The notes beneath the pieces were generated by a model. The model had not been told where the DNA came from. It saw only the letters and a list, made by a program, of their open reading frames with translations, and ran no database searches. Shown here in pieces: positions 24,466 through 39,857 of a DNA stretch of 64,000 nt. The DNA comes from Litorimonas taeanensis. GTDB lineage: Bacteria; Pseudomonadota; Alphaproteobacteria; Caulobacterales; Maricaulaceae. The stretch spans positions 186,001-250,000 of the forward strand of contig NZ_RBII01000001.1 of NCBI RefSeq assembly GCF_003634015.1, given 5' to 3'. Both the position numbers and the translations under genes were made by a program. The first letter of the stretch is position 1; every line of letters starts with the position of its first letter.

Positions 24466-24533
24466 GAATATGCGCCCCAATGAGGCATCAAGGTTACACG
24501 CTGATTGGGACAGCGCGTAATGGGGGGGTTAAA

Positions 24534-25037
24534 ATGATTGAGGGGAACGCATTGCGGCATCAGATGGTGCTACCGCAGCAGCAAAAGATTTATGATTATT
24601 GGCGTTCAAAATGTAGCGCAGATAAGTTTCCTTCACGTCACGAAATTTTCCCTGAAGATATTGGTAAGCAGCTTCCGACAACCACATTGACAGAAGTTGT
24701 TGCTGAAACAGGTCGCTATCGTATCCGCCTTGCTGGTACAGGGTTTTGGAATTTATTTGATAGCGAAATTCAAGGTCGCCATATTGATGAACTGCCTATG
24801 GGCTGTCGAAATGACTATTGGAAAAATGTCCTTGATAATGTGGTGAAGCACCGCCGCCCTTATGCGGGTGTCACGCGACCTGGCACACCTAATGGTTCGC
24901 ATTTAGCGCAATTCTGGATTCGCCTACCATTGGCGGATATCGGCAAGAACGTCACAATGATCCTCGGCTATGACCATTTTGTGAAAATGGAAGCTCAATC
25001 ATCAGATAGCTCGGTTTCTGATAAACTTTACGCCTAA
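24534..25037 (+). CDS. PAS_5-type PAS domain protein
   Basis: A 167-residue protein of the alphaproteobacterial PAS_5 type. The domain spans about 15-155: an N-terminal DYWRSKC helix, then the RLAGTGFWNLFDSEIQGR segment and the terminal PLADIGKNVTMILGYD strand. No output domain is present. Proteins of this type are often small stand-alone regulators. ATG 24534 follows a G-rich stretch; an in-frame ATG at 24447 would add 29 residues but overlaps an operator-like repeat and has no ribosome site. Ligand unknown. Confidence 0.8.
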   Translation: MIEGNALRHQMVLPQQQKIYDYWRSKCSADKFPSRHEIFPEDIGKQLPTTTLTEVVAETGRYRIRLAGTGFWNLFDSEIQGRHIDELPMGCRNDYWKNVLDNVVKHRRPYAGVTRPGTPNGSHLAQFWIRLPLADIGKNVTMILGYDHFVKMEAQSSDSSVSDKLYA

Positions 25038-25172
25038 ATTCATAGCTTTAGCCATCTTCTGCCCATATAGTCATCGGATGCATGTTGACTTTTTGTTCTC
25101 TTTTATAGGAATATAATCCTCACCACTCTGTGCGGCGCTATCATGCCTTCAGATATTATCGGAGGATTAATG

Positions 25173-25568
25173 ATGCCGCACAAACAGCCCTTAATTTATT
25201 GCCGCGATACACAAGCATTCGCTGTGCAGTCTCATCAAGCAAATTTGGCCATAGCCGCCGTTTCACTAGAGTTCGGTTTGACTGAGCTCGATATGAAAAA
25301 CCCAGAACGTCAAAACCGTCAGCTCCGTTTTGCCCGTCAGGTTGCCATGTATTTAGCGCATGTGGTGTATGAGTTGAACCATACGCATTTAGGGCGAATT
25401 TTTGCCAAAGATCGTTCGACCATAAGCCATGCCTGCAAAGTGGTGGAAGAAAGCCGCGATGATGGTGTGTTTGACCTGAAACTCATTCGGTTAGAGAATT
25501 TCCTGCGCCAAGCTCCCAAACCCGTCACGCCCGCGCTTGTGTCCCTGAATGGAGGGATGGCGACTTAG
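25173..25568 (+). CDS. DnaA-like helix-turn-helix protein; GafY-like GTA activator candidate
   Basis: A 131-residue protein with a DNA-binding domain resembling DnaA domain IV at about residues 45-105. The RQVAMYLAHVVY helix is followed by the FAKDRSTISHACKVVEE recognition motif. No ATPase domain is present, so it is not DnaA. Rhodobacter GafA has a DnaA-like half followed by a second half; Caulobacter splits this into GafY and GafZ. This gene directly precedes a DUF6456 gene and then the GTA genes, fitting GafY. Start at ATG 25173 (GGAGG 7 bases upstream); ATG 25170 is also possible. Identity as GafY is inference. Confidence 0.75.
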   Translation: MPHKQPLIYCRDTQAFAVQSHQANLAIAAVSLEFGLTELDMKNPERQNRQLRFARQVAMYLAHVVYELNHTHLGRIFAKDRSTISHACKVVEESRDDGVFDLKLIRLENFLRQAPKPVTPALVSLNGGMAT

Positions 25569-26348
25569 ATGATTACATTTGAACAACAGCAAATTTTACG
25601 ACGTCTCATTCATCATAAAGCCGTTATCAGCGTTGCTAGCGGCTGTGATGCCTTTCCCGCTCATCCTCATGGGGACAGGCGAAGGCGCCCTGCTTTTTGG
25701 GTTCCGGTAAAAGATATGCAGGCATTAAAGGCAGAGGGGGCTTTGGAAATGGGGGCATCAGGATATCGTGTTGTGCCCAGCGTCAAACGGCGACTACAAA
25801 ATGGCAAAGAGGCAAGTGCCTTAAATCAACATTATGACCTGCGGGAGCGAGATGTCTATGTAACGGGCGGCGTACAACGCAAAGCGCGCGTTAACACACG
25901 GCTCTCGGCGCTTGACCGATTGGCGCATCAGACCGACTCTGAAGGTCGGCCCTTGCTTGAGAGTAGTTTGATTGAAGCCGGAAAACGCATTGCTCAGGAT
26001 TATCATGCCTCTGGTCATGGGTTGGCGACCACACAGCGTTATGATGGGGCGGGTGTTTCGTCTGATACCAATAGTGTCGAAGATCGTTTCATTCATAGAG
26101 CAGATGCTAAAGCCAGACTCCAATCAGCGCGCGAAGCAATGGGGGCCGGGCTCGATACAGCTGTTATCGCAATATGCTGTTTAGACCAATCTTTGGACGC
26201 TGTAGAGTCTGCCGAACGCTGGGCGGCAGGAAGTGGATTAACGGTTCTGACTCTGGGACTGACGCGGCTTAGCGAGCATTACGGCACGATTGCGGGAGAA
26301 AAAAACCAATCTGTAAAGATACATCCACGGCAAGCAAAGTCGGCTTAA
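25569..26348 (+). CDS. DUF6456 protein; GafZ-like GTA activator or antiterminator candidate
   Basis: A 259-residue protein. The N-terminal 110 residues are basic with a winged-helix-like feel. Residues about 115-250 match DUF6456: LDRLAHQTDSEGRPLLE, a Ala/Gly/Arg-rich AGKRIAQDYHASG helix, then AICCLDQSLDAVESAERW and LGLTRLSEHYG. It starts immediately after the stop of the DnaA-like gene, so the two are cotranscribed. In Caulobacter, GafZ acts with GafY and as an antiterminator of the GTA cluster. The order GafY-like then GafZ-like is kept here, but linked to the structural genes. Assignment is by domain and context only. Confidence 0.75.
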   Translation: MITFEQQQILRRLIHHKAVISVASGCDAFPAHPHGDRRRRPAFWVPVKDMQALKAEGALEMGASGYRVVPSVKRRLQNGKEASALNQHYDLRERDVYVTGGVQRKARVNTRLSALDRLAHQTDSEGRPLLESSLIEAGKRIAQDYHASGHGLATTQRYDGAGVSSDTNSVEDRFIHRADAKARLQSAREAMGAGLDTAVIAICCLDQSLDAVESAERWAAGSGLTVLTLGLTRLSEHYGTIAGEKNQSVKIHPRQAKSA

Positions 26349-26357
26349 TTTTCTTCT

Positions 26358-26738
26358 ATGAAGATGAACACGACCGCCAAACTTTATAATATTCACTCAG
26401 TCGAAATCTTACTCCACAATCTTATTGACGCGATGGAAGGGCATGAAACGGCCCCTTTCACCAATGAAAACATAAGCAGCATAACAAGCGAAATCGCGAG
26501 CGTTGAGAAATTTATTCGTTGCGGAATGAACCTGCTGAAATTTATCGAGGCTTTGACCACACAGAATGAAAAACATATGGCGGCGAATGCTGAAAAGGCT
26601 GAAATCCGATATGAAGACCTCCCACCCCTTAACGCCGAAGATCTCCTCGCATTGCGGCGGCGATTCACTCATCTTGCAAACGCAACGTCGATTGGGGCCG
26701 GCTTGGGCGAATTTTATCCAGAACCTGAGTTCAAATGA
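26358..26738 (+). CDS. GTA g1-position protein, candidate small terminase
   Basis: A 126-residue, mostly helical protein nine bases after the DUF6456 gene and overlapping the terminase gene. In Rhodobacter capsulatus the corresponding gene g1 encodes the small terminase. The sequence shows no motif I can assign, but the position, size and acidic helical content agree. Residues 40-95 could form a coiled coil as in small terminases. No strong ribosome site is visible; ATG 26364 is an alternative. Identity is inferred from synteny. Confidence 0.6.
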   Translation: MKMNTTAKLYNIHSVEILLHNLIDAMEGHETAPFTNENISSITSEIASVEKFIRCGMNLLKFIEALTTQNEKHMAANAEKAEIRYEDLPPLNAEDLLALRRRFTHLANATSIGAGLGEFYPEPEFK

Positions 26739-27960
26739 TTATGCGGCCATTGGCGACTATTGGGATTTTACAGCGCGTCCAGACCAGAAGCCTCCCAGTA
26801 TAGACTGGCTTGTTTGGATTTTGCTCGGGGGGCGCGGCTGCGGAAAAACGCGTACAGGGGCCGAGTGGATATCAAGGCGCGCCGAAACGGTCGGCCGTAT
26901 TGCTTTAATCGCACCGAACCTAAATGATGCCAGAGAGGTGATGTTAGAGGGGGAGAGCGGACTGCTGAATATAGGCTTCCCGCGTAAGCGCCCACGATAC
27001 ATTGCCTCTCGACGACGGCTCGAATGGCCGAATGGCGCTTTGGGGTATTTATTTTCTGCAGAAGATCCAGATAGCCTGCGCGGCCCGCAATTTAACGCCG
27101 CATGGGCAGATGAGTTTTGCGCGTGGGCGTACCCAGAGGCGGCTCTGGCAAATTTACGACTAGGGTTAAGGTTAGGGGATAAACCCCAATTGGTTATGAC
27201 AACCACGCCCCGTCCAATACCCGCTTTGATAAAGCTCATGCAGGCAAAATCCACAATCGTCTATCGGGCGAAAACCCAAGATAATTATACCAACCTCTCT
27301 CCGGCTTTCTTGTCGATGATGGAGGATACTTACGGGGGCACACGCCTAGGGCGTCAAGAGTTATCGGGTGAAATTCTATTAGATCAGGCGCATGCACTCT
27401 GGTCATATGCTATGATAGAGGCTTGCCAGTACCGAGAAGATATACCCGCATTGGACCGTATTGTCATTAGCCTCGACCCGCCGGTCACCTCTGGAGAGAA
27501 GTCAGATCATTGCGGTATCATCGTGGCAGGAAGACAAGGGCAGGGCCGAACGGCCAAGGCTTTCGTTTTGCAAGATGCAAGCATACAAGGCGTTTCGCCA
27601 GAACGATGGGCTCGTACCGCCATTGATCTGTTTAAGGCGTGGGAGGCGGATGAGCTCTTGGTCGAAGTGAATCAGGGTGGAGATTTGGTGAAAACGGTCA
27701 TTGGCTCGATTGACCCTAACATCCCGGTCAAAACTGTATTCGCTACGAAAAGTAAAAAGGCCAGAGCGGAACCCGTAGCGGCGTTTTATGAACAGGGCCG
27801 CGTTGTCCATGCCGCGCGATTAGAGGCGCTGGAGAGCGAGCTTTTAACCCTTGGAACATCGGCGCAGAAGGGCAGTCCCGACCGTGCAGACGCCTTGGTT
27901 TGGGCCGTGACACATCTGTTAACGCAAGGCGGGCTACCGCCCAAAATTCGGTCAATATAG
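26611..27960 (+). CDS. GTA large terminase (g2, TerL)
   Basis: Phage-type packaging motor with an N-terminal ATPase and a C-terminal nuclease. The Walker A motif LLGGRGCGKTRTGAEW is followed by a Walker-B-like NAAWADEFCAW. The nuclease part contains ISLDPPVTSGEKSDHCGI and ends with PDRADALVWAVTHL, all typical of GTA terminases. The true start is unclear: ATG 26611 gives 449 residues, ATG 26566 is 15 codons longer, and TTG 26674 or 26692 gives an N-terminus closer to that of relatives. All overlap the g1-position gene. First of the capsid-packaging genes of the GTA. Confidence 0.9.
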   Translation: MKTSHPLTPKISSHCGGDSLILQTQRRLGPAWANFIQNLSSNDYAAIGDYWDFTARPDQKPPSIDWLVWILLGGRGCGKTRTGAEWISRRAETVGRIALIAPNLNDAREVMLEGESGLLNIGFPRKRPRYIASRRRLEWPNGALGYLFSAEDPDSLRGPQFNAAWADEFCAWAYPEAALANLRLGLRLGDKPQLVMTTTPRPIPALIKLMQAKSTIVYRAKTQDNYTNLSPAFLSMMEDTYGGTRLGRQELSGEILLDQAHALWSYAMIEACQYREDIPALDRIVISLDPPVTSGEKSDHCGIIVAGRQGQGRTAKAFVLQDASIQGVSPERWARTAIDLFKAWEADELLVEVNQGGDLVKTVIGSIDPNIPVKTVFATKSKKARAEPVAAFYEQGRVVHAARLEALESELLTLGTSAQKGSPDRADALVWAVTHLLTQGGLPPKIRSI

Positions 27961-27989
27961 TCTCTTTAAGGCTCTGTTAACCCTAAGTT

Positions 27990-28005
27990 TTAAAGCAGAA
28001 TTAAC
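27990..28005. promoter_or_regulatory. Full CtrA box (TTAA-N7-TTAAC) inside the GTA cluster
   Basis: TTAA at 27990-27993, seven bases, then TTAAC at 28001-28005: an exact match to the Caulobacter CtrA consensus. It lies 61 bases upstream of the inserted 145-residue gene, in the 106-base gap after the terminase gene. A GTTAAC sits just upstream at 27976-27981. CtrA binding is inferred from sequence. Confidence 0.6.
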
Positions 28006-28066
28006 CTCAATATCGCAAGGGTGTCCCACGAATATACACCTTAGGATCAGGTTTCGGAGATGTGGA

Positions 28067-28504
28067 ATGCTTAAATTTGGACAGAATAAGTTAAAGAATG
28101 AACTTGAACAAAAACTTGCTGAAACAGACGCAGAATTGGCTGAGCTGAACAAATCACTAGCTGACAAGATGACACGTCTGGCCGAACAGACAGGGGATAC
28201 TGCGCCCTTAATCCAAGCGGTAGACGCTCTTCATAAAGCCAAAAAATATTACAGCGTTGAAACGGCGCCCAAAGAAACGCTGGATGTACATGAAGCCTTG
28301 GCGGACACATTGCTGCTTTTGGGCCGCGAAAATAAAGACCGCGAAGCCTTGGAAAATTCTGTGAAAGCCTATCGCAATGCCATTACAATGGCGTCATTGA
28401 TTGGCGATGAAGATCGCCGACAGGATCTGAAAATTAATTATAAACTGGCGCTAACATTTTTAGGGCAGCATCAAGAAACTCCATCCTTGTTTAAGGTGGC
28501 GTAA
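28067..28504 (+). CDS. 145-residue helical (TPR-like) protein inserted between terminase and portal
   Basis: No family recognised. The first 45 residues are a Leu/Glu/Lys coiled coil. The remainder looks like TPR-type helix pairs (TAPLIQAVDALHKAKKYY, then TLDVHEALADTLLLLG, then ALENSVKAYRNAITMA). Not part of the standard GTA gene set. It has its own 106-base upstream region with a CtrA box and a GGAG site 7 bases from the ATG, and a 162-base gap behind it. It may be a cell-cycle-linked accessory or regulator of the GTA, or an unrelated insertion. Confidence 0.78.
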   Translation: MLKFGQNKLKNELEQKLAETDAELAELNKSLADKMTRLAEQTGDTAPLIQAVDALHKAKKYYSVETAPKETLDVHEALADTLLLLGRENKDREALENSVKAYRNAITMASLIGDEDRRQDLKINYKLALTFLGQHQETPSLFKVA

Positions 28505-28555
28505 AAACACATTAAATCAGTAGGTTAAAACGAAATCATAGAGAATATTCCGCAC

Positions 28556-28569
28556 CTGACCTAGGTCAG
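28556..28569. promoter_or_regulatory. 14-bp perfect palindrome upstream of the portal gene
   Basis: CTGACCTAGGTCAG is a perfect palindrome in the 162-base gap between the inserted gene and the portal gene, 98 bases before the portal start. It resembles an operator for a dimeric regulator. No T-run follows, so it is not a terminator. Confidence 0.4.
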
Positions 28570-28666
28570 CCTATAAACAGCTTATCGACGAAATTGGGCC
28601 GAAAATTATGAGGCTTAATTCATTGGACGGCGCTTCGGCCATCCGTGTCAAAAGGATAAGCCTTAT

Positions 28667-29839
28667 ATGTTTGAATTTTTAAAGCCGCCTGCCTCTCGCA
28701 GCGCGGCTCTTTCTTTGCCTAATGCTGGCCCAGAAGACATTAAATCTGCGGCTCCGCTAATCGCCCTGCAACTAGGACAAAGCGCCCATTGGACCCCGCA
28801 AAGTTTTAATGCGCTTTGCCGCGAAGGTTATGGGCGAAACCCTATTGTTTATCGCTGTGTAAGATTGATTTCAGAAGCCGCGGCAAGCGTACCTTTGACG
28901 ATATTAGAGAGTCCAGATGCAGATGCTTTTTTAAATCGCGCCTCTCTATCTCAAACTTTGACGCAAACTCTAGAGGCCTTTTACGGCTATCTTCAACTGT
29001 CAGGCGAGGCTTATTTAGAAGCCATATCTGTTAATGCCTTACCTTATACGCTCGGTGTAATCTGCCCCGATACTGTTACGCCTCTCGCAGCCAGGTCAGG
29101 GGGAATAACGGGGTGGGAAATAGTCGCACCGCAAAATGCTCCTCGGCAATTACAGATGCATATAGCTTCGGGCCGTTCCCCTATATTTCACATGAGTTTG
29201 TTCAGTCCAAAAGGCACAGTCTCACCATTAAATGCCTGCGCTCAAGCCGTTGACCTTCATAATGAGGGTGGGCACTGGGCAAAGGCGCTCTTGGAAAACT
29301 CAGCGCGTCCGAGCGGGGCACTGATTTACAAAGGGGTCAATGGGGCAGAGCATTTAACAGATGAGCAGTTCGAACGCTTGAAAAGAGAGTTCGAAACGGG
29401 CCACACTGGGGCGCGCCATGCGGGACGGCCTTTGGTGCTAGAGGGCGGCCTTGATTGGAAGTCAATGAGCCTTTCCCCCGCGGATATGGATTTCATCGAA
29501 GCCCGCCGCGAAGCCGCTCGTGAAATTGCTTTGGCCTTTGGCGTGCCGCCAATGCTTTTGGGTCTGCCGGGCGATAATACTTATGCAAATTATCGCGAAG
29601 CGAACCAAGCCTTTTGGCGGCAGACGGTTTTACCGCTCGTGCAAAAGACGGCAGCGGGTTTACAAAATTGGCTCCGTCCATGGTTTGACGATGCGCTCAG
29701 GATAAGGCCCGATTTTGAACAAGTCCCAGCGTTAGCAGAAGACAGAAATCGTCTTTGGCAGCGCTTATCAGGGGCAGATTTCCTATCAAACGCCGAGAAA
29801 AGAGCGTTGGCAGGCTTAACGCCAGAAAGCGAGGGCTGA
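28667..29839 (+). CDS. GTA portal protein, HK97 type (g3)
   Basis: A 390-residue phage portal protein. The N-terminal region carries NPIVYRCVRLISEAAASVPL. The core has LLENSARPSGALIYKG, MDFIEARREAAREIALAFGVPP and GLPGDNTYANYREANQAFWRQ, all diagnostic for HK97-family GTA portals. It forms the dodecameric channel at the capsid vertex through which DNA is packaged by the terminase. Its TGA overlaps the ATG of the next gene (ATGA). Confidence 0.95.
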   Translation: MFEFLKPPASRSAALSLPNAGPEDIKSAAPLIALQLGQSAHWTPQSFNALCREGYGRNPIVYRCVRLISEAAASVPLTILESPDADAFLNRASLSQTLTQTLEAFYGYLQLSGEAYLEAISVNALPYTLGVICPDTVTPLAARSGGITGWEIVAPQNAPRQLQMHIASGRSPIFHMSLFSPKGTVSPLNACAQAVDLHNEGGHWAKALLENSARPSGALIYKGVNGAEHLTDEQFERLKREFETGHTGARHAGRPLVLEGGLDWKSMSLSPADMDFIEARREAAREIALAFGVPPMLLGLPGDNTYANYREANQAFWRQTVLPLVQKTAAGLQNWLRPWFDDALRIRPDFEQVPALAEDRNRLWQRLSGADFLSNAEKRALAGLTPESEG

Positions 29840-30108
29840 TGCGGTCTCAAGATAAAGTTTTCACATTCAACCGAACCATTGGTTTTGGATTGTTGCTGAC
29901 ATTATCCGTGCAAACGGCCAGCGGATTAATCTGGGCGGGGGCTGCTGAAGCGCGGTTAAAGGCCGCTGAAATTCAGCTTTCTGAACGGGCCCCCGCCCTT
30001 GAACGTCTTGCCGTTATGGAAGGGCAAATGACGATGATTTTACTGAGTCTGGACAGGATAGAGCGGCAAGTCATGGCCAATGCGCTCGAAGCGGAAAGAC
30101 GACCATGA
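29839..30108 (+). CDS. GTA g3.5-position small membrane/coiled-coil protein
   Basis: An 89-residue protein with one transmembrane segment (about 13-34) followed by a coiled coil (about 40-80). The position between portal and prohead protease is that of g3.5 in Rhodobacter. The function of g3.5 is not known to me. I place the start at the ATG overlapping the portal stop; a longer reading frame from 29755 would overlap the portal gene and is unlikely. It overlaps the protease start by four bases. Confidence 0.8.
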   Translation: MRSQDKVFTFNRTIGFGLLLTLSVQTASGLIWAGAAEARLKAAEIQLSERAPALERLAVMEGQMTMILLSLDRIERQVMANALEAERRP

Positions 30109-30587
30109 GTGAAAAAGCGGCAGACGCTCTCCTCAGAATTTCAGGCTATGCGAGCCGATTTGGACAAGTAGATTTATCAGGCGATCAAGTCGTAAAGGGC
30201 GCTTTTTCTGCGTCTATATTGAGTTTGCGAAACGGACGTTTACCGATGTTGATTGGGCATGATGCATCCGAGCCTATTGGTGTTTGGGATAGAATTCTTG
30301 AAGATAAAACGGGGTTGTTTCTCTCAGGTAGACTTTTGCTAGGGGCAAAAAAATCTGAACGGGCGGCGCGATTGATTAAAGAGGGGGCCATTTCAGGCTT
30401 ATCCATTGGATACCGCGTGCGCCGCAGCATGAAAACGCAATCGGGCCGACTTTTGACTGAACTCGACCTTTGGGAGGTCTCGGTCGTGGCCTTCCCCATG
30501 CTCCGTTCTGCACGGATTACGCAGATTGACGACCCGACACTTTCAAATCGTTTAAACACACAAAAAGGACTAAAAGCCTATGGCTAA
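30105..30587 (+). CDS. GTA prohead protease, HK97 family (g4)
   Basis: A 160-residue serine protease that matures the capsid. The start RISGYASRFGQVDLSGDQV, the active-site His in LIGHDASEPIG and the Ser in ISGLSIGYRVR are in the right order for the HK97 prohead protease family. The small size is typical of GTA proteases. It overlaps the capsid gene start by eight bases. Confidence 0.93.
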   Translation: MSEKAADALLRISGYASRFGQVDLSGDQVVKGAFSASILSLRNGRLPMLIGHDASEPIGVWDRILEDKTGLFLSGRLLLGAKKSERAARLIKEGAISGLSIGYRVRRSMKTQSGRLLTELDLWEVSVVAFPMLRSARITQIDDPTLSNRLNTQKGLKAYG

Positions 30588-31782
30588 TATTGAAACAAAG
30601 CATCTGAATATGAAAGAAGCTCAGGCTGATTTTGCGCAAACCTTTGCCGCTTTCAAAGCCGCAAATGATGATCGTTTAGCGGCGCTTGAGCAAAAGTCTA
30701 CGGATGTTCTTCTCGATGATAAGGTTGCAAGATTGAATGCCGCGCTCGACACGCAATCCAAGCAAATTGAGAACCTATCCCTGAGCTTATCTCGCCCAAA
30801 TCTGGAGAGGCGCGTTAATACAGAGGCCAAATCCGCGTGGTCGAGTTTCATCAGGACAGGCGATGCAAATGCTTTGGCAGACTTAGAAGGCAAATCTCTT
30901 TCGAGCGTAGATGCAGAGGGCGGTTATGTGGCGCCAATAGAGACTGAGAGCCGTATTGATAAGGCCTTATCAGAAAGCTCACCCTTTCGTTCTTTGGCCA
31001 CGATACGCCGTATTGGGTCAGGATTGTTCAAAAAACCTGTCAGCGCTTCCGGCGCGGCGTCGGGTTGGGCCGGTGAAACAGAGGCCAGAATTGAAACGCA
31101 AGCGCCGCAGCTTGAACTTCTCGATTTTCCAGCGGGGGAGCTTTATGCCATGCCCGCCGCGACACAGGCCTTATTGGATGATGGGGTCGCCGATGTTGAC
31201 CAATGGCTAGCCGATGAGGTTCATGATATTTTCGCGGCGCAGGAAACGGCGGCCTTTGTTGGGGGTGACGGGGTGAATAAACCGCGCGGTCTATTAGATT
31301 ACATCCAAGCCGAGAACGGAACGCAGAGCTTTGGCGAACTAGGTGTCGTTTCTACGGGTACGGCAGGAGCATTTGACAGCGCGGCGCCGACGGATGCGCT
31401 ATTGGATCTTATTTATGCGGGCAAGAGTCGTTACCGCGCGGGCTCCAGCTTTGTCATGAACCGCCGCACAATCAACGACATTCGTAAATTTAAGGACGCC
31501 GATGGGCATTATATTTGGCAACCTTCTAATGAGGCAGGGCAGCCGAGTACTTTACTGGGCTATCCTTTAATTGAAGTCGAAGACATGCCGGATGTGAGTT
31601 CAGGCAATGCGTTTACAGCGTTTGGTGATTTCCGTCGCGGCTATCTTATTGTTGATCGTCAAGGCGTACGCGTCTTGCGCGACCCTTATTCAGCCAAGCC
31701 TTATGTCTTGTTTTATACAACCAAACGCGTGGGTGGGGGCGTACAAGATTTCGACGCGATTAAGCTGCTAAAGGCGGCGTAA
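30580..31782 (+). CDS. GTA major capsid protein, HK97 fold (g5)
   Basis: A 400-residue HK97-fold capsid protein. The N-terminal 100 residues form a coiled-coil delta domain that is probably removed by the g4 protease. The mature part begins near SLSSVDAEGGYVAPIE, and holds the DQWLADEVHDIFAAQE helix and the YRAGSSFVMNRRTINDIRK and LGYPLIEVEDMP motifs. Followed after 34 bases by an intrinsic terminator. Confidence 0.95.
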   Translation: MANIETKHLNMKEAQADFAQTFAAFKAANDDRLAALEQKSTDVLLDDKVARLNAALDTQSKQIENLSLSLSRPNLERRVNTEAKSAWSSFIRTGDANALADLEGKSLSSVDAEGGYVAPIETESRIDKALSESSPFRSLATIRRIGSGLFKKPVSASGAASGWAGETEARIETQAPQLELLDFPAGELYAMPAATQALLDDGVADVDQWLADEVHDIFAAQETAAFVGGDGVNKPRGLLDYIQAENGTQSFGELGVVSTGTAGAFDSAAPTDALLDLIYAGKSRYRAGSSFVMNRRTINDIRKFKDADGHYIWQPSNEAGQPSTLLGYPLIEVEDMPDVSSGNAFTAFGDFRRGYLIVDRQGVRVLRDPYSAKPYVLFYTTKRVGGGVQDFDAIKLLKAA

Positions 31783-31816
31783 ACAAACCCTCATTTCCCC
31801 CTCAATAAACAACCAA

Positions 31817-31840
31817 GCCGCGAGTTTCGCGGCTTTTTTT
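31817..31840 (+). terminator. Intrinsic terminator inside the GTA cluster
   Basis: A perfect 7-bp stem GCCGCGA/TCGCGGC with a three-base loop and seven T. It lies between the capsid gene and the connector gene, where readthrough is needed to express the tail. Caulobacter GafZ is reported to carry RNA polymerase past terminators inside its GTA cluster. Confidence 0.88.
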
Positions 31841-31866
31841 ATGCAGTAAACTCAAAGGAGGCCTCT

Positions 31867-32430
31867 GTGCTCACAGATATAAACCTGCCAGGCATAGAGC
31901 CTGTTACCTTAGACGCGGCTAAGCTTTTCTTGCGTATCGATCATGATGATGAAGATGCCCTGATTACAGAGCTTATACAAAGCGCGCGTGAAAGGCTTGA
32001 GAGCCTTTGCCGTACAACATTAATTATGCGGGCGCAGCGCTTGACACTATTGCCGCCCTTTCATCGTAAGCTAGCCTTATCTATCCATCCCATCCAATCC
32101 GTCACAGGGGTGACGTTGCATTTGCAAGAGGGCGGAGAGGAGAGCGTCGATATAAAAACGCTCTGTATTAATCTACGCTCGACGCCCGCAACGATAGAGC
32201 CAACTAAGCTTGGTCTTTGGGGATGGCATAACCGCCAAGACGTATCCGCGCTAACGGTAGATGTTGTTGCGGGATATGGCGAGGCCATCAATGACATTCC
32301 CATGCCCTTACGCCAAGCGATGATGCTTTTGGTTGGTCAGGGTTATGAAAACCGTTCTGGCCGCGAAGTGCCATCCGTTCCTATGCTCGTTGACGCGCTG
32401 ATAATGCCCTATCGGAGCTTGAAAATATGA
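31867..32430 (+). CDS. GTA head-tail connector protein (g6)
   Basis: A 187-residue connector of the gp6-like family. The opening PVTLDAAKLFLRIDHDDEDALITELIQSARERLE is the standard signature, given here in abridged form as LDAAKLFLRID and ALITELIQSARERLE. The C-terminus has LRQAMMLLVGQGYENR. It forms the ring below the portal. GTG start with AGGAGG five bases upstream. Overlaps the next gene by four bases. Confidence 0.9.
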   Translation: MLTDINLPGIEPVTLDAAKLFLRIDHDDEDALITELIQSARERLESLCRTTLIMRAQRLTLLPPFHRKLALSIHPIQSVTGVTLHLQEGGEESVDIKTLCINLRSTPATIEPTKLGLWGWHNRQDVSALTVDVVAGYGEAINDIPMPLRQAMMLLVGQGYENRSGREVPSVPMLVDALIMPYRSLKI

Positions 32431-32744
32431 TTGGCGATCTGAGAAGCCGTCTAGGGCTCTATATCCCCATAGTACAAGCCGATGAATTTGGCGGTACAAA
32501 GACACAATGGAATTTCCACAGCGCCTTTTGGGGCGCTGTTACGCCTAAAACCGTGACGGAACGTCAAGAAAATGGCCGCCTAGCCGTCACGCAAAGTTAC
32601 CGCGTCACCCTGCATTACCAACCGAATTTCCCTGAGAGGGCACGGATACTGTGGGGAGAGCGGATATTACGCGTCATAACATCGTCGGACCCCGATAATC
32701 GGCGCGAACGGCTTCATCTAATTTGCGAGGAGGAACAGCAATGA
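32427..32744 (+). CDS. GTA head closure protein (g7)
   Basis: A 105-residue beta-rich head closure protein (SPP1 gp16 type). It begins GDLRSRLGLYIP and continues with ERQENGRLAVTQSYRVTLHY, the pattern of phage head-tail adaptors. It plugs the connector until the tail attaches. Coupled to g6 (4-base overlap) and g8. Confidence 0.88.
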   Translation: MIGDLRSRLGLYIPIVQADEFGGTKTQWNFHSAFWGAVTPKTVTERQENGRLAVTQSYRVTLHYQPNFPERARILWGERILRVITSSDPDNRRERLHLICEEEQQ

Positions 32745-33151
32745 ACGCGTCTATTGCAAAAGCGGTGCACCAGCTTTTGGCGACGAATAGCCTTATCCAA
32801 GACAATCTTGGCACGCCGCCTCGGTTATATGATGCCGCGCCAGAAGATCCAGTTTTCCCTTATCTAAGTTATGGTAACTTAAGGAGCGAAGATATTGGAG
32901 GCGATGAGACACACTTAACGTCTCATCAAATGACTTTGCATCTTTGGTCTCGCTATTCGGGGCGGTCAGAAATTTTGACCCTCATAACCGTCCTAAAACA
33001 GGTTTTGGCTGATAAAACAGGACTGGCTGTGGCGTTAGAGACTGGCTCTGTCATCAGCAGCGCCGTGTTATTCACCGATATATTACGGGCGGCTGATGGC
33101 CGCACACATCATGGATTGCTGCGCCTCTCCGTGCTGACAGAAACCACATAA
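32741..33151 (+). CDS. GTA DUF3168 tail terminator-like protein (g8)
   Basis: A 136-residue DUF3168 protein with PRLYDAAPEDPVFPYLSYG and LTSHQMTLHLWSR motifs. The family is thought to cap or join the tail to the head in phages. A GAGGAGG ribosome site 7 bases upstream decides for ATG 32741 over an upstream in-frame codon at 32723. Overlaps g7 by four bases. Confidence 0.9.
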   Translation: MNASIAKAVHQLLATNSLIQDNLGTPPRLYDAAPEDPVFPYLSYGNLRSEDIGGDETHLTSHQMTLHLWSRYSGRSEILTLITVLKQVLADKTGLAVALETGSVISSAVLFTDILRAADGRTHHGLLRLSVLTETT

Positions 33152-33168
33152 GCAGAATAGGGGAGAAT

Positions 33169-33579
33169 ATGAGCGCACAAAGCGGCCGCGACTTGCTCGT
33201 TAAAATGAAAAAACCGGATGAGAGCTATCAGACATTGGCGGGGCTTCGCAGTAAAACCATACGGTTTAATGCCCGCCCGATAGACATAACGCATGCAGAT
33301 TCCGCACAGGGATGGAAAGAGCTATTGCCCCATGCTGGGATAAAATCGGCGGAAGTGTCAGGCGTAGGGATATTTAAAACCGAAGAGAGCGCCGCTTTGG
33401 TGCGGCAAGCTTTCTTTGATCAAACCCTGTTAAATCTACGTTTGATATTGCCAAGTTTCGGGCAAATAGAGGGCCCCTTTTTGATAGGTTCACTAACCTA
33501 TAGCGGAAGTTTTCAAGGCGAAGCACGCTTTGAAGTAACGCTTTTTAGTGCGGGCCAACCGGTCTTTTTGCCGATATGA
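33169..33579 (+). CDS. GTA major tail tube protein, TP901-1 family (g9)
   Basis: A 136-residue tail tube protein: SAQSGRDLLVKM near the start, a core QTLAGLRSKTIRFNARPID, then IEGPFLIGSLTYSGSFQGEA and LFSAGQPVFL at the end. These match the TP901-1-type tail tube proteins of GTAs. It stacks in rings around the tape measure. It overlaps the chaperone gene by four bases. Confidence 0.94.
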   Translation: MSAQSGRDLLVKMKKPDESYQTLAGLRSKTIRFNARPIDITHADSAQGWKELLPHAGIKSAEVSGVGIFKTEESAALVRQAFFDQTLLNLRLILPSFGQIEGPFLIGSLTYSGSFQGEARFEVTLFSAGQPVFLPI

Positions 33580-33869
33580 AACGCCATCCTTTAGACCGCA
33601 TTATATGCGTTGATGAGGCATCGCCGCACCCTGTGATAACCTTGCGATTTTCAATGAAAGCTTTGGCCAAAATGAGCCGGGATTTACAGGTCGATACCCC
33701 ATTGGAATTAGCGCAAAAACTTCGCGCCAATGACTCTAAAACCCAAGAGGAAATCCTAAGGGTGTTGTTCCAGTCTTTGTGTTTAAAACCACAGCCTGAA
33801 CCCGGCCGCAAAACCTTGCTCAGAGCTTTGCCGATTATGTCCAAATTAATTGAGGAGGGCTTTGCATGA
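33576..33869 (+). CDS. GTA tail assembly chaperone (g10, gene transfer agent family)
   Basis: A 97-residue protein carrying the GTA-family motif LRFSMKALAKMSRDLQVD near the start. It lies between the tail tube and tape measure genes, the usual slot of the tail assembly chaperone. It overlaps both neighbours by four bases. Probably binds the tape measure before tube polymerisation. Confidence 0.82.
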   Translation: MKRHPLDRIICVDEASPHPVITLRFSMKALAKMSRDLQVDTPLELAQKLRANDSKTQEEILRVLFQSLCLKPQPEPGRKTLLRALPIMSKLIEEGFA

Positions 33870-34051
33870 ACCCACATAAATGGCCCTTTCAGGCTTGGTT
33901 CCGTCTGGCTGTATTACACATGAAACTCTCTCCTGACGCCTTTTGGGATATGCCAGTCCGTGACTGGTTATGGCTCTGTCAAAACCGTGATGAAGCCCCT
34001 CTGACAGCGCATGATTTTACCCCCTTATTTGAGGCCTTTCCAGATGAATGA
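33866..34051 (+). CDS. GTA small tail assembly chaperone (g10.1, rcc01693-like)
   Basis: A 61-residue protein with WFRLAVLHMKLSPDAFWDMPVRDW, here seen as FRLAVLHMKLSPDAFWDM, the hallmark of rcc01693-type phage tail assembly chaperones. It overlaps the g10 stop and the tape measure start. In lambdoid phages the equivalent is made by frameshift; here two reading frames are used. Confidence 0.86.
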   Translation: MNPHKWPFQAWFRLAVLHMKLSPDAFWDMPVRDWLWLCQNRDEAPLTAHDFTPLFEAFPDE

Positions 34052-34454
34052 AACTCAGAATGCGGCCCATCAGCTTGAGCGTTTTAATATTGAAGAGGCT
34101 GAACAATCAGCAGAGGCCATGGCCCAAGCCTTTGAACAGGCGAGTGAGCGTATCGCAGGCGCGCTACAACGAGCCGCGAGTTCAGGGGAAGTATCCTTCT
34201 CACAAATGGCGGAATCTATCTCTCAGGATATGGCAAGAATAGCCGTTCAAGAGCTGATTGCAGATCCGCTTGAAAGCGTTTTCCAATCCCTCTTATCTTC
34301 TGTCGCGGGACAGTCCAGTACAGCTAAAACAGCCCCGCTAAACCTGACGCTGAATTTGTCTGGGCAAGCCGCAGGCGCTGGCAAGACAAAATCTGACACA
34401 CAGATTGCGGCGAATATAGCGCGAGCTTTATCGCGTGGGCGAAAGCTTACTTAA
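34044..34454 (+). CDS. GTA tape measure protein, unusually short (g11)
   Basis: A 136-residue helical protein in the tape measure position. It shows a heptad-like pattern (QLERFNIEEAEQSAEAMAQ, then EQASERIAGALQRAAS) and a Gly/Ala-rich middle, with the TAPLNLTLNLSGQAAG segment and RALSRGRKLT ending seen in GTA tape measures. Rhodobacter g11 is about 219 residues, so this one is clearly shorter. The ATG overlaps the g10.1 stop, with GAGG about 10 bases upstream; the in-frame ATG at 34011 is embedded in g10.1. Confidence 0.8.
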   Translation: MNETQNAAHQLERFNIEEAEQSAEAMAQAFEQASERIAGALQRAASSGEVSFSQMAESISQDMARIAVQELIADPLESVFQSLLSSVAGQSSTAKTAPLNLTLNLSGQAAGAGKTKSDTQIAANIARALSRGRKLT

Positions 34455-34473
34455 TCAAAACAAAGAGAATTAA

Positions 34474-35103
34474 ATGATAGAATTTCATAATGTTCGTTTC
34501 CCGTCTGGGTTGGCATTTGGAACATTTGGCGGTCCCGAGTTTAAGACTGAGGTGACTACCCTTGCGAATGGACACGAGTATAGAAACACGCCATATGCGC
34601 ATCCGAGGAGACGTTTTGAGATAAACGCAGGGATTAAGACTAGTCAGCAAATATCTGAATTAAATGAATTTTTTATATCAAGAAAAGGTCGTTTGCATAG
34701 TTTTCGGTTCAAAGACCCTTTTGATTGTCTATCTTGTGATTTAAATAAATCGCCATCTGCTTTGGATCAAATCATTGGGTATGGCGATGGAGTTGAGAGG
34801 TCTTTTCAACTCATCAAAACCTATGATGACCAAACTTCTCCTCGGTTAATTAAGAAGCCGCAAGAGGGTTCTGTCCTGATAGCCATTGGTGGCGCTGAGG
34901 TTGAACAACCGGAATTCTCTGTTGATCTGATGGCCGGTGTTGTGATGTTTACGACGGCGCCCGCGCTTGGGGCCGAAATTACGGCGGGGTATATTTTTGA
35001 TATCGTCGTGCGCTTTGATACGGATAGCCTCGACATGACGCTGGAAGATTACGGCGCCGGCGTTCTGCAATCCATACCTTTGGTGGAGGTGCTTCATGCG
35101 TGA
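34474..35103 (+). CDS. GTA distal tail protein, DUF2460 (g12)
   Basis: A 209-residue DUF2460 protein with the typical start FHNVRFPSGLAFGTFGGPEF, a FFISRKGRLHSFRFKDPFD segment and a C-terminal FDTDSLDMTLEDYGAG. In the Rhodobacter particle structure, g12 is the distal tail protein that joins tube and baseplate. AAGAG ribosome site; its stop overlaps the g13 start by eight bases. Confidence 0.93.
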   Translation: MIEFHNVRFPSGLAFGTFGGPEFKTEVTTLANGHEYRNTPYAHPRRRFEINAGIKTSQQISELNEFFISRKGRLHSFRFKDPFDCLSCDLNKSPSALDQIIGYGDGVERSFQLIKTYDDQTSPRLIKKPQEGSVLIAIGGAEVEQPEFSVDLMAGVVMFTTAPALGAEITAGYIFDIVVRFDTDSLDMTLEDYGAGVLQSIPLVEVLHA

Positions 35104-35755
35104 AATACAAGCGCCGCTTCAATCGCACCTTTCCGAGCCTGTAACGACTTTATGTACTGCGTGGAAACTTGAGTTATCTGATGGCCGTGTATTTGGATTT
35201 ACTGAACATGATGAAAATTTGGAAGTTGACGGGGTTTTATATTCGGCCCGGTCGAGCCAGACACAATCAGAGACAGAAAGCCGACTAGGCTTCTCCGCAG
35301 ATAATGGCAGTATCCAAGGCGTATTAGAAAGCCTCGTAATTTCGTCTGCCGATATTGACGATGGGGTTCTGAGAGGCGCGAAATTATCACACTTAAAAAT
35401 CAACTGGACGGCCCCTTCGCAATATGTGGTTCTCTCAGTTGGGGAGGTCGGACAGGTCACAACCCAAGGCGAATATTTCGAGGTGGAGTGGCTTGGCTTT
35501 TCGGCGAAATTAAATCGTTCTACGGGACGGGTTTTTTCTAAAAAATGTGACGCGAAATTTGGCGATGAGCGGTGCGGATTACTTGCGTCAAATTATGGCT
35601 CTGATGTGATATGCCCCAAGACATTTACGGCTTGTCGTGACCAATTTCATAACGCTGAAAATTTCCGTGGTTTTCCATATCTATTAGGCGCCGATGCTCT
35701 GCTGGCTGCCCCTCAATTGGGCGAGCTTAAAGATGGTGGTTCACGTTACCGATGA
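35096..35755 (+). CDS. GTA baseplate hub protein, DUF2163 (g13)
   Basis: A 219-residue DUF2163 protein. TLCTAWKLELSDGRVFGFTEH opens the domain. The C-terminal part has four Cys, in CDAKFGDERC and then CPKTFTAC, ahead of the FRGFPYLLGADAL ending. The Rhodobacter hub carries an iron-sulfur cluster, and these four Cys are the likely ligands. It overlaps g14 by four bases. Somewhat shorter than many family members. Confidence 0.9.
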   Translation: MREIQAPLQSHLSEPVTTLCTAWKLELSDGRVFGFTEHDENLEVDGVLYSARSSQTQSETESRLGFSADNGSIQGVLESLVISSADIDDGVLRGAKLSHLKINWTAPSQYVVLSVGEVGQVTTQGEYFEVEWLGFSAKLNRSTGRVFSKKCDAKFGDERCGLLASNYGSDVICPKTFTACRDQFHNAENFRGFPYLLGADALLAAPQLGELKDGGSRYR

Positions 35756-36198
35756 CAGCTCTTCGCGCGCGCGTAATTTCGGAAACGCGTCTTTGGCTTG
35801 ATACGCCCTATCAACATCAAGCCAGTGAGCGCGGCGCAGGCAGTGACTGTCTCGGCTTAATCCGCGGTGTCTATCGATCGCTTTACGGCTCAGAGCCAAT
35901 AGCTGTTCCGCCTTACACTCCTGATTGGGCAGAAAGATCTGGGAAGGAAACCTTGCTTGAGGCGGCGAAAATTTACCTAAAGGAAATTCCCTTACATCGC
36001 ACACAGCCAGGGGATGTTTTAATTTTCCGAATGCATCCGGGCGCTTTATGTAAACACATGGCGATACTGACTTCGCCGAACATGATTACCCATGCCTATT
36101 GGGGGCGCGCTGTCGTGGATAGCTATTTCGTGCCCTATTGGAATCGACGCTGGGTGAGCAGTTTTGCCTTTCCTGAAATAGAAAAGAAAACCCTATGA
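35752..36198 (+). CDS. GTA NlpC/P60 cell wall peptidase (g14)
   Basis: A 148-residue NlpC/P60 peptidase with the nucleophile Cys in GAGSDCLGLIRGVYR and the His in LCKHMAIL, about 60 residues later. In the Rhodobacter particle g14 sits in the baseplate and opens the host peptidoglycan for DNA entry. Overlaps g13 and g15 by four bases each. Confidence 0.92.
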   Translation: MTALRARVISETRLWLDTPYQHQASERGAGSDCLGLIRGVYRSLYGSEPIAVPPYTPDWAERSGKETLLEAAKIYLKEIPLHRTQPGDVLIFRMHPGALCKHMAILTSPNMITHAYWGRAVVDSYFVPYWNRRWVSSFAFPEIEKKTL

Positions 36199-39100
36199 CA
36201 ACACTGGCTATCAGTGCGGCGAATTTCGCGGCGTCTACTGTCACGCAAACAGCGACTCAATTTGCGCTTTCCGCAGCAAATTCAGCCATTTCTAATATAT
36301 TCGACAATCGGACGTACGAAGGGCCGAGACTAGAGAGCTTTGAACTACAAACATCCCAAGATGGCGCACCTATGCCAAAAGTCTATGGCCGCATGCGGTT
36401 GGCTGGTCAGGTGATTTGGGCCTCGCGATTGCGAGAAATACAGACAGAGGAGGACGTGAGCACAGGCAAAGGCGGCGGGCCAACGCAGACGCAATATCGA
36501 TACTATATCAGCTTTGCCATAGGCCTTTGCGAAGGCGAAATTTTAGGCATCGATAGGCTATGGGCCAATGGAAGCCCATTACAGGAACAGGGCCTTACGA
36601 TGCGAGTCTATAAAGGCACGGAGGGGCAATTGCCTGACCCTATTATTCAGGCCGTCGAAGGTAACGCCGTTCCTGCCTTTCGTAATACGGCATATATTGT
36701 TTTTGAAGATTTCCCATTAGAGGGTTTCGGAGCGCGTTTGCCGCAGATTAATGCTGAGGTTATACGGATTCCGCCTTCCATAGATGCCAAGGCACCCGAT
36801 AAAATGGAACAGCTCATCAAATCTGTGAACCTTTTGCCCGCGACGGGAGAGTTCGCCTATGCTACTGATATCGTAGAGGAAACCCCAGAACCAGGCGTTT
36901 CGCGGCCAATCAACATGAACAACCTTTCTGGTCAAGCCGATATAATGCTGGCGTTAGATCAGCTCGAAGATCAACTGCCCAATTGTCAGCACGTATCAAT
37001 TATTACGGCATGGTTTGGTACAGCATTAGCTTGTAAGGATTGTGAAATCCATCCAGGTGTTGAACGTAGAGACAGAATTCTACCCTATCACAGTTGGACG
37101 GTTGCCGGTGAGACGCGCGGGACAGCTTATTTGGTGTCAATGGATGCCGAAGGACGCCCCAATTTCGGCGGAACGCCGTCGGATGAGAGTATAAAACAAA
37201 CGATAATTGAACTGAAAAGGCGAGGGTATAAAGTCACTCTATACCCCTTTCTCTTAATGGATATTCCATCAGGCACCAATCCTTTCCCGTGGCGAGGGCG
37301 GATAAGTGGTGATGAAGGGGCAAGTGCTGTGTCCCAAGTGGCAACGTTTTTTAATCGCGACAAAGGCTTCAAGAATTATATCCTGCATTACGCCCAATTA
37401 GCGCAAAACGTAGGCGGGGTGGACGCGTTTGTTATTGGGTCTGAAATGCGCGGGCTGACAACTTTGCGCGGGCCAAGAATTAACGGTGTCTCAACTTATC
37501 CTGCTGTGCCGCATTTTGTGGCATTGGCGCAAGATGTGAAGGCTGTTTTAGGGCCGAGTTGCGCCGTAACCTATGCCGCTGATTGGAGTGAGTATTTTGG
37601 CCACCATCCCCAAGATGGTAGCGGAGATGTCAACTTTCATCTTGATCCGCTTTGGGCCTCTAGCGCGATTGATGTCATTGGAATCGATGGTTACTTTCCT
37701 TTATCGGATTGGCGGGACGGCCCGCACCTAGATACAGATTTGGCACCCGATATTTATGACAAAGCCTATCTGCAATCGCAAATCGAAGGCGGTGAGGGCT
37801 ATGATTATTTTTATGATTCAGATGCTGATAGACAGGCACAAAACCGTACAGAAGTCACAGATGGAACGGCGAATAAGCCGTGGGTGTTTCGCTATAAGGA
37901 CCTTAGAAACTGGTGGTCAAATACACATTATAACAGAGTAAATGGGGTTGAAACAGGCGCCCCAACAAGGTGGCAGCCACAGTCAAAGCCAATTTGCTTT
38001 CTGGAAATTGGCTGTCCAGCGGTTCGGTTTGGAGCGAACCAACCCAATCTCTTTTATGATTCAAAAAGCGGGGAGAGCGCCCGTCCTCATTTCTCGGATG
38101 GGTCTCGGGATGATTTGATGCAGCGCCGCTACATAGAGGCCTTCATCTCTTATTGGGATAACCCTGAAAACAACCTGCTATCCTCTGATTATTCTGGCCG
38201 TATGATTCAGACAGACCAAATGAGCGTCTGGGCGTGGGATGCGCGGCCTTTTCCTGATTTTCCAGCGCGAGAGAGCGTTTGGGCTGATGGCGAGGCTTGG
38301 CAATCTGGGCATTGGATATCGGGGCGTATAGGGCTTGTCCCGATTGCCGACATAGTCCGTGAACTTGCGGCACAGTCTGGGTTGATGTCAATTGATACGT
38401 CACAACTCAACGGCGTCGTGCAAGGCTTTAAAATTGACCGCCCGATGAGCGCACGGGCGGCTCTTTCCACCTTAAGTCAAATCTATAGTTTTAGTTTGGC
38501 GGAACAAGGAGGTGTGGTGTCATTCTTTTCACTCGGTCAAGGTGATGTCTCTGCTATCCCCCTCTCGGCCATAACCGAAAACATAAAGGGGGTTGTGCGC
38601 CATATTCACTCTGACCCCGCAGAGGCGCTTCGAGATGTGCGTTTGCATTTTATCGATGCGGGCGCGGATTATCAAAATGGCCTTGCCTCTAGCCAAGACC
38701 GAGCGTCAGAGACAGAAAATATCCTAGATATAGCGGCGCCTTTGGTTCTGGATAGATATTTTGCGGGCTATCTTTGCGACAACCTGTTTGAGAGGTTGGA
38801 AAAACAGAATGAAGAACTTCACCTTTCACTTTCGCCTCGGGCTTTGGAAATCGAAGTCGGGGATCGTGTGACCTTGCCCGATATAGTAGGGATTTGGCGG
38901 ATAGAAACAATTGAAGAGTCAGATGTTAGGAAAATCATTGCGGTACCCGATGGGGCTGCGCCTTTGAGTCTCGTAAATGGCGCCATACCAGAGACTTCCA
39001 CAAATATTGTTTGGCCGAGCCGTCCTGTACCCTTGGCCCTAGACCTCCCTGCACCTTATTCAGGTCTTGGGGTTGGCGTGGTGATGCACCCATTTGCACC

Positions 39101-39857
39101 GTCTCGTATAGTTTCAGGTGATTCAGAGGTCAGCACATCTCAGGCCCTACATGTAGGTGCTGTGCTAAGCGATATTCCTGCGGGGCCAACAGCCTATTTT
39201 GATAGACAGGCAACATTCGAGTTTGAATTGCGCGGGCTCACACTTAGTCGCCATGACGAGGCCGCTGTTCTGAATGGGGCAAATCGCTTTGCCATAGAAA
39301 CCCCTATGGGATGGGACATTATGCAGGCCGCCTCTGTTACGCTTATTGGCGTAAACCGTTATCGCGCCTCCATTCTATTAAGGGGTGTAGGTAGCGAAGG
39401 CTATTCTAGAGACGGCGTGGCGGCGGGAGCGCGGCTCGTCTGGTTGAATGCAGGTGTTCAAGTTTTGGATGTGTCTCCCGAACTTTTGGGTGAGACCATA
39501 GCCCTGACCGCCGAAGTGGCAGGGCGGCAGAGCCTACCAACTAATCATATATTCAAAGCCAGCCACCTTCGCCCGTTAAGCCCAGTGCATTTACGCGCTG
39601 TGCCGAATGATACGGGGCTAAATATAAGCTGGATACGCCGTTCGCGCGAGGATGCTGACAGCTGGGTCGGCGAAATACCGCTTGGCGAGGCGGAGGAACG
39701 CTATCGCCTCCGTCTGTGGAGTCATAATAATTTAGTTCAAACTACAGAAACGACCGCGCCAAATTACTTCACGACAGTACAAGGCTTGACCAAAATCGAT
39801 GTGGCTCAAGGTTCTGATGCTTATGGATGGGGGGAAATCACGACAATCGAGTTTTAA
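36195..39857 (+). CDS. GTA megatron: TIM-barrel-like and tail tip protein (g15)
   Basis: A 1220-residue baseplate protein closing the GTA cluster. An N-terminal alpha/beta tail hub (about 40-230) carries PMPKVYGRMRLAGQVIWASR. A glycoside-hydrolase TIM-barrel-like domain (about 290-660) has LKRRGYKVTLYPFLLMDIPSG and IDVIGIDGYFPLSDW. After about 700, phage tail and C-terminal beta domains follow. In Rhodobacter g15 forms the tip that contacts the recipient. Length is close to known family members, and no stop or frameshift is seen. Confidence 0.95.
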   Translation: MTTLAISAANFAASTVTQTATQFALSAANSAISNIFDNRTYEGPRLESFELQTSQDGAPMPKVYGRMRLAGQVIWASRLREIQTEEDVSTGKGGGPTQTQYRYYISFAIGLCEGEILGIDRLWANGSPLQEQGLTMRVYKGTEGQLPDPIIQAVEGNAVPAFRNTAYIVFEDFPLEGFGARLPQINAEVIRIPPSIDAKAPDKMEQLIKSVNLLPATGEFAYATDIVEETPEPGVSRPINMNNLSGQADIMLALDQLEDQLPNCQHVSIITAWFGTALACKDCEIHPGVERRDRILPYHSWTVAGETRGTAYLVSMDAEGRPNFGGTPSDESIKQTIIELKRRGYKVTLYPFLLMDIPSGTNPFPWRGRISGDEGASAVSQVATFFNRDKGFKNYILHYAQLAQNVGGVDAFVIGSEMRGLTTLRGPRINGVSTYPAVPHFVALAQDVKAVLGPSCAVTYAADWSEYFGHHPQDGSGDVNFHLDPLWASSAIDVIGIDGYFPLSDWRDGPHLDTDLAPDIYDKAYLQSQIEGGEGYDYFYDSDADRQAQNRTEVTDGTANKPWVFRYKDLRNWWSNTHYNRVNGVETGAPTRWQPQSKPICFLEIGCPAVRFGANQPNLFYDSKSGESARPHFSDGSRDDLMQRRYIEAFISYWDNPENNLLSSDYSGRMIQTDQMSVWAWDARPFPDFPARESVWADGEAWQSGHWISGRIGLVPIADIVRELAAQSGLMSIDTSQLNGVVQGFKIDRPMSARAALSTLSQIYSFSLAEQGGVVSFFSLGQGDVSAIPLSAITENIKGVVRHIHSDPAEALRDVRLHFIDAGADYQNGLASSQDRASETENILDIAAPLVLDRYFAGYLCDNLFERLEKQNEELHLSLSPRALEIEVGDRVTLPDIVGIWRIETIEESDVRKIIAVPDGAAPLSLVNGAIPETSTNIVWPSRPVPLALDLPAPYSGLGVGVVMHPFAPSRIVSGDSEVSTSQALHVGAVLSDIPAGPTAYFDRQATFEFELRGLTLSRHDEAAVLNGANRFAIETPMGWDIMQAASVTLIGVNRYRASILLRGVGSEGYSRDGVAAGARLVWLNAGVQVLDVSPELLGETIALTAEVAGRQSLPTNHIFKASHLRPLSPVHLRAVPNDTGLNISWIRRSREDADSWVGEIPLGEAEERYRLRLWSHNNLVQTTETTAPNYFTTVQGLTKIDVAQGSDAYGWGEITTIEF

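Follow-up and report, generated by a model that had tools for sequence, protein, structure and literature searches.

The two genes that resemble the activators of a gene transfer agent (GTA) in Litorimonas taeanensis stop 9 bases before the ATG that opens a cluster of the Rhodobacter capsulatus (RcGTA) type, raising the question of how this contact arose and what it means for the switch that turns the cluster on. The window, the whole stretch of DNA analysed, comprises 64,000 nucleotides (assembly GCF_003634015.1, contig NZ_RBII01000001.1, forward-strand positions 186,001 to 250,000); coordinates count from its first base, and all features given for it lie on the + strand. Activators stand apart from the cluster in both studied systems. 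The first-pass annotation of this DNA had said as much, and this holds for Caulobacter crescentus, in which gafYZ (CCNA_01111/01112) are reported apart, by locus number, from the CcGTA cluster (CCNA_02880-02861) (PMC9632790). In R. capsulatus, GafA is described as a single protein, whose gene most often has lipA and gua1 as neighbours (PMC6363796), whereas here there are two genes. Our reading, to which we give a probability of about 0.65, is that the split activator operon gafYZ of an RcGTA-type GTA was brought into contact with the cluster by loss of a host-gene block, with a two-step switch kept and read-through added.

The pair consists of a gafY-like gene (25170..25568), encoding a DnaA domain IV helix-turn-helix (HTH), and, directly behind it, a gafZ-like gene (25569..26348) encoding a DUF6456 protein (PF20057, E=7e-28), in the positions directly upstream of the cluster that had been assigned to them. 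The open reading frame (ORF) 25143/25170/25173-25568 matches PF08299 (Bac_DnaA_C) at E=3.6e-14, with 53 bits against a cut-off of 31.5; the best start candidates are 25170 and 25173, preceded by GGAGG at 25161-25165, and an alternative ATG at 25143 overlaps the -10 element proposed below. Domain, order and the left neighbour mucR (23809..24237; ROS/MUCR regulator, PF05443, E=5e-42), which holds the same place in relatives, all agree with the suggested identity as GafY/GafZ, the two halves of GafA. PF20057 is also matched in Caulobacter vibrioides. GafA matches are reported to be annotated as DUF6456 or HTH proteins, and most Hyphomicrobiales GafA-like genes to come after a small DnaA-like gene, with mucR (or an HTH gene) upstream and sufE downstream, giving the published split-gafA synteny mucR - DnaA-like gene - gafA-like gene - sufE (Sherlock and Fogg 2022; PMC9638019). 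The window shares the left neighbour and the gene pair with these loci; where sufE comes next in them, the GTA cluster stands here. With CcGTA, governed by GafY/GafZ, RogA and IHF, it shares the split into a DnaA-like and a GafA-C-terminus-like protein, the cluster type and a probable RogA-type palindrome at the gafYZ promoter. Across 1,331 genomes, 759 GafZ homologs are reported, 494 of them with an adjacent GafY (PMC9632790).

A closer gafA homologue elsewhere, which the first-pass annotation had named as a point to check, was rejected: the profile search found a single DUF6456 gene in the window genome (assembly 99.95% complete), a second DnaA-domain gene not having been searched for. As regards the sigma-factor-like HTH that marks GafZ and the GafA C-terminus, the predicted GafZ model (pLDDT 72.1, pTM 0.49) finds its best PDB match in sigma-28, at probability 0.97 but a weak E of 0.19, with none at E 0.001, and by sequence GafZ has no match in the PDB.

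Contact had also been proposed as an ancestral, prophage-like arrangement, in which case other lineages would later have parted activator and cluster by inserting host genes; the gene order of relatives makes this quite improbable. From gafZ to the large terminase gene terL, one relative (G034) carries sufE, a kinase-like gene, prfC, the gene of a class A penicillin-binding protein and a CxxCxxCC (UPF0260) gene, the key genes being named by Pfam, and the same order is found in G022, G024, G026, G030 and G134. Four other families hold this block in part, lacking prfC and the kinase-like gene (G280), the kinase-like gene (G166, G317), prfC (G361) or sufE and the CxxCxxCC gene (G250); in these and in the window's family, terL follows gafYZ on the same strand at a distance of ~10-30 kb, with host genes in the interval. 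Identical repeated insertion across five families, even with the block partial outside the window's, is implausible. The linked genomes (window's genus and Hellea), in which gafYZ touch the cluster, keep both outer flanks wherever the fetched stretch reaches, mnh-mucR-PAS on the left and dnaJ on the right, and prfC and the UPF0260 gene have other places in all 8 of the 8 tested, well separated or on separate contigs (the window genome has them 47 kb from each other).

A host-flank tree built from mnh and MucR proteins unites the linked rows as a single clade (100/99), and G024 and G026 lie on its far side; G024 and G006 have long branches. Its 20 rows represent 19 genomes and its 13 linked rows 12 distinct genomes, one contig (L146 and G070) being counted twice here and in the terS-signature and W28/CtrA counts below. 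Because the block is present in relatives and absent here with both flanks kept, and because the linked genomes form one host-tree clade, we infer a single loss: a host block of ~12-19 kb, from sufE to the CxxCxxCC/UPF0260 gene, would have disappeared once, in the ancestor shared by the window's genus and Hellea. Prophage hallmarks (integrase, lysogeny and replication genes) were not found beside the cluster, the 10 scanned flanking genes being host genes. Ancestral contact draws its support from the same-strand neighbourhood within ~30 kb in the five families, from contact in G308, of another family (761 bp), and in the metagenome-assembled genome (MAG) UBA11222, which group together on the TerL tree, from the basal position of linked rows within their clade on that tree, and from phages carrying GafA with GTA-like structural genes, noted by Fogg 2019 (PMC6363796). 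On balance we infer an old gafYZ-GTA neighbourhood and a derived direct contact.

The synteny survey that had been suggested finds contact at <1 kb in 16 of 103 family genomes and 1 of 26 other class genomes. Among 137 genomes of the GTDB family, the window's included, DUF6456 was found in 111, a GTA terminase in 108 and both in 103, distances being taken from the best terminase match per genome. The two genes lie on different contigs in 48 of the 103. On the same contig and strand with gafZ upstream, they are <1 kb apart in 16, at 3.5 kb in 1 (a partial gafZ), at 10-30 kb in 23, at 30-60 kb in 3 and at >60 kb in 3; the remaining 9 are placed otherwise. G012, in which gafZ is followed 2.2 kb on by a terminase fragment where the contig stops, is counted under different contigs, and G002, with a weak fragment, is excluded. 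All 16 genomes in contact belong to the window's genus (12) or Hellea (genus g12; 4). A class sample of 212 genomes holds 26 besides the window's with both genes, some DUF6456 matches being weak: 7 at 10.0-29 kb, in four families (f82, f11, f48, f8), 1 at 51 kb, 1 at 422 kb, 1 at <1 kb (G308), 7 otherwise on one contig and 9 on different contigs. Among the best 80 named terminase loci, 5 were found to have gafZ upstream: those of two Hellea, of UBA11222, of a Hyphomicrobiales MAG and of Methylobacterium sp. J-088. In 63 of the 80, a group that does not include UBA11222, the sequence extends 8.9 kb or more upstream. A gafYZ-GTA neighbourhood within 10-30 kb is widespread and may be old. Neither it nor gafYZ joined to the cluster was found described in the open-licence literature searched, supplements aside, PMC9836097 and PMC10688885 included.

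In UBA11222 and G308 (L224:1-2212, L259, L267), gafZ lies ~0.8 kb from the terminase, the two grouping together on the terminase tree, and no gafY was found by profile; upstream in L224, inspection by eye shows an XRE-like stretch in divergent orientation and a palindrome, AGG-N8-CCT. Methylobacterium sp. J-088 (L222:3836-10000) has gafZ 2.6 kb from the terminase with sufE in between, a compact form of the wider order.

The first-pass annotation had expected contact to make the cluster a more self-contained unit, which is overstated, the cluster keeping a probable promoter of its own. The predicted core of PgafY, ATCC-N19-TATCAT (25116..25144), has a spacing of 19 found in 13 of 19 gafY upstream regions, against 0-3 for each other ATCC spacing from 12 to 26, the regions being related and the counts not independent. 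A candidate PgtaT, ATCC-N19-TAATTT (26323..26351), takes in the 3'-terminal bases of gafZ, its stop codon included, and ends 6 bases before the ATG of terS. Before terS, the spacing-19 design is present in 9 of 20 regions under a narrower pattern (0-4 at other spacings), and a wider signature stands just before the ATG in 20 of 31 loci versus 18 of 1963 ATG ORF starts, its -10 alternatives having been added partly after the sequences were seen and the control including terS and gafY starts. Judged from sequence, PgafY and the second promoter overlapping the gafZ end probably share one design, ATCC-N19-TAnnnT. As a general signature outside Caulobacterales, this design was ruled out by a scan of 79 named loci, with 6 at spacing 19 and 5 at 20; a control stretch gave 0 and 4 of 70. 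Between 24900 and 29000, standard scans for sigma-70 promoters and for terminators returned 6 promoter-like sites (4.5 in shuffles) and 4 terminator-like sites (4.9 in shuffles), with no terminator-like site between gafZ and terS. For Caulobacter, a GafZ palindrome is reported between the -35 and -10 of PgtaT and the gtaT start codon at +251 from the start site (PMC11150451), in contrast to the ATG 6 bases after the proposed -10 here; GafY and IHF are reported to act at PgafYZ, which is GafY's own promoter (PMC13236601).

A RogA-type operator candidate, TAGGAATATAATCCTC (GGAA-TATA-ATCC; 25106..25121), shares its right half with the -35 element ATCC (25116-25119) of PgafY, and the exact 16-mer occurs once in the window genome. 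Of the 24 distinct family genomes read, 23 have the pattern GGA-N6-TCC before gafY, mostly as GGAATATAATCC, G026 being the exception; G018 carries the exact GGAA-N4-TTCC form, GGAAAATATTCC. The Caulobacter RogA site is reported as two GGAA-N4-TTCC repeats in PgafYZ (PMC9632790). At 14 loci outside the family, GGA-N6-TCC is present in 6 (G250, G041, G057, G058, L220 and L224, the L224 copy lying far from the promoter) and was not found in 8 (G280, G166, G361, G317, G308, G240, G037 and L222), so the palindrome is not class-wide. The repressor candidate is a 208-aa HTH-S24 protein at G000:C2:1067648 in the window genome. Its gene is preceded by GGCTTTTTTTCC here and in G015, and relatives in G028 and G018 by GGAATATTTACC or GGAATATTTCCC; no such site was found upstream of the G034 copy by the pattern used. 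Near-matches of the operator elsewhere did not point to rogA but fell in a region of L133, L135 and L141 that resembles a conjugative element. In that region, recognised by eye (near 1500 in L133 and L135, near 1308 in L141), there are sites of the TAGGAATATAGTCCTT kind, similar in form to the gafY operator, which in L133 and L141 lie upstream of a small AlpA-like gene.

The two-step switch that we propose would run as follows. A RogA-like repressor seated on the palindrome covering the -35 would hold PgafY off; on its release, GafY and GafZ would be made and would activate PgtaT, of the same design and overlapping the gafZ end; and GafZ, for which anti-termination with NusA/E/G is a defining activity, would enable polymerase to read on across the cluster, the behaviour described for Caulobacter. 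Contact would add cluster transcription by read-through from PgafY.

Several observations weigh against derived contact with a two-step switch. The TerL tree (38 rows) needs three changes of linked state and does not hold the window's genus together, a constraint to that effect being rejected (approximately unbiased test, p-AU 0.024), and the host-flank tree, to which we give more weight because its alignment is longer, leaves out linked G003, G013, G069 and G072 as well as Hellea G075 and G076. GTA gene exchange between species, or more than one block loss, is a possible source of the clash. In G075 and G076 the terminase is separated from gafYZ and adjoins a gene that here stands to the left of mnh, suggesting that the activators have since left the cluster again. 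The window palindrome is a single repeat, one base off the published RogA repeat GGAA-N4-TTCC. The HTH-S24 candidate may not be the RogA ortholog, because its catalytic serine and lysine look present by eye, whereas RogA is described as an HTH plus an S24-like domain with key catalytic residues missing (PMC9632790).

The PgtaT signature is also missing in 5 of 15 linked genomes (G015, G028, G017, G003 and G006), of which G015, G003 and G006 have near-complete clusters, and G028 (H. balneolensis) and G017 carry a Shine-Dalgarno-like stretch, seen by eye, in its place; G014 has the signature and a broken cluster. These gaps, together with a 9-base spacing that leaves no intergenic room, would suit one plain operon from PgafY only, its second promoter signature a product of chance or decay. 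We regard this as unlikely, given that 10 of 15 linked genomes carry the signature in the position where unlinked ones have it, compared with ~1% of ORF starts elsewhere. A further alternative holds that contact is neutral gene order without regulatory effect, possibly in a decaying GTA, and has a real if minor chance of being right. Clusters are broken in G028, G017 and G014, with internal head or tail genes lost and no masked bases, so linkage may not mean use, and the displaced terminases of G075 and G076 point the same way. Yet every gene of the window cluster is open, G015, G001, G003, G006, G009, G013 and G072 carry homologs of the full set or of the full set minus the small ORF 33576-33869, and the operator and promoters are conserved.

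By its genes, the window cluster is an RcGTA-type gene transfer agent: it carries the head and tail gene set in RcGTA order (genes named g1 to g15 in that system) and a GTA_TIM-domain tail protein, resembling R. capsulatus in structural gene set and order and in its two activator halves. That all standard GTA genes are in order and open stands as regards order, open frames and most families, while 26358-26738, 29755-30108, 33576-33869 and 33866-34051 are assigned by position only. The first cluster gene is the terS/gtaT/g1 candidate (26358..26738), placed by position, with a similar ORF in some relatives at 30-38% identity. It is followed by TerL (26566..27960; PF03237, E=3.8e-28; PF17289, E=9.5e-18), whose true start is probably near 26710, W28 (28067..28504), the portal (28667..29839; PF04860, E=2.8e-70), the S78 prohead protease (30105..30587; PF04586, E=1.5e-27) and the HK97 major capsid protein (30580..31782; PF05065, E=2.8e-86). 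The stretch 31867..36198 encodes connector, head completion, gp17-like, tail tube, small tail ORFs, tape measure, DUF2460, hub and NlpC/P60 proteins, with matches to PF05135, PF05521, PF11367, PF06199, PF09718 (tape-measure C-domain), PF09343, PF09931, PF00877 and TIGR02215, and the 1220-aa g15-like GTA_TIM protein follows (36195..39857; PF13547, E=7.3e-137). Profile searches gave no family match above cut-off for 26358-26738, 29755-30108, 33576-33869 or W28, and for 33866-34051 a sub-threshold match only, to the rcc01693 family; the RcGTA tape measure family NF058675 scores 23 bits against a cut-off of 220, confined to residues 106-145. To the left, a PAS_5-domain gene (24447..25037; PF07310, E=1.2e-13) lies between mucR and gafY, as in many family genomes, and to the right a dnaJ-like gene (39915..40835; PF01556, PF00226) is the conserved neighbour by synteny. 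The broken clusters of H. balneolensis (L078), G017 and G014 (L088, L082) keep their activators attached. In G034 a DUF2726 gene stands between terminase and W28 (L062:6686-7201), with similar genes in G009, G013, G018, G022, G028 and G032, indicating that host-like genes have entered the cluster in these genomes.

W28, a 145-aa gene within the cluster between TerL and portal, is found in 25 loci (24 distinct). Two full CtrA sites, TTAA-N7-TTAA, precede it in the window (27966-27980 and 27990-28004; motif scan), and in 21 of 25 loci (20 of 24 once duplicates are removed) perfect sites lie 49-104 bases before it, whereas the density over all fetched stretches would predict 0.011 per region. The four loci without them (G005, G006, G014 and G017) form one terminase subclade. 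CtrA control of gafY was rejected, no TTAA-N7-TTAA being found in the gafY upstream regions scanned. A more far-reaching version, which we consider doubtful, would see in the gafYZ - host block - GTA order of five families a fossil of the founding provirus, re-fused in the Hellea lineage by block loss and placed under a single RogA-type switch, PgafY serving both to start the activator loop and to read directly into the structural genes, with the CtrA-boxed gene inserted as a second, cell-cycle input.

With activators apart from the cluster in both studied systems, a clade in which they touch, set beside close relatives in which they are spaced, constitutes a natural experiment on the effect of linkage on a gene-transfer switch that is lethal. 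The promoter design common to both sites, with its 19-base spacer, provides a searchable signature for such promoters in Caulobacterales. From the order gafYZ - sufE - ... - GTA it seems that several alphaproteobacterial families have kept activator and structural genes close together, a lasting neighbourhood that bears on the domestication of the founding phage.

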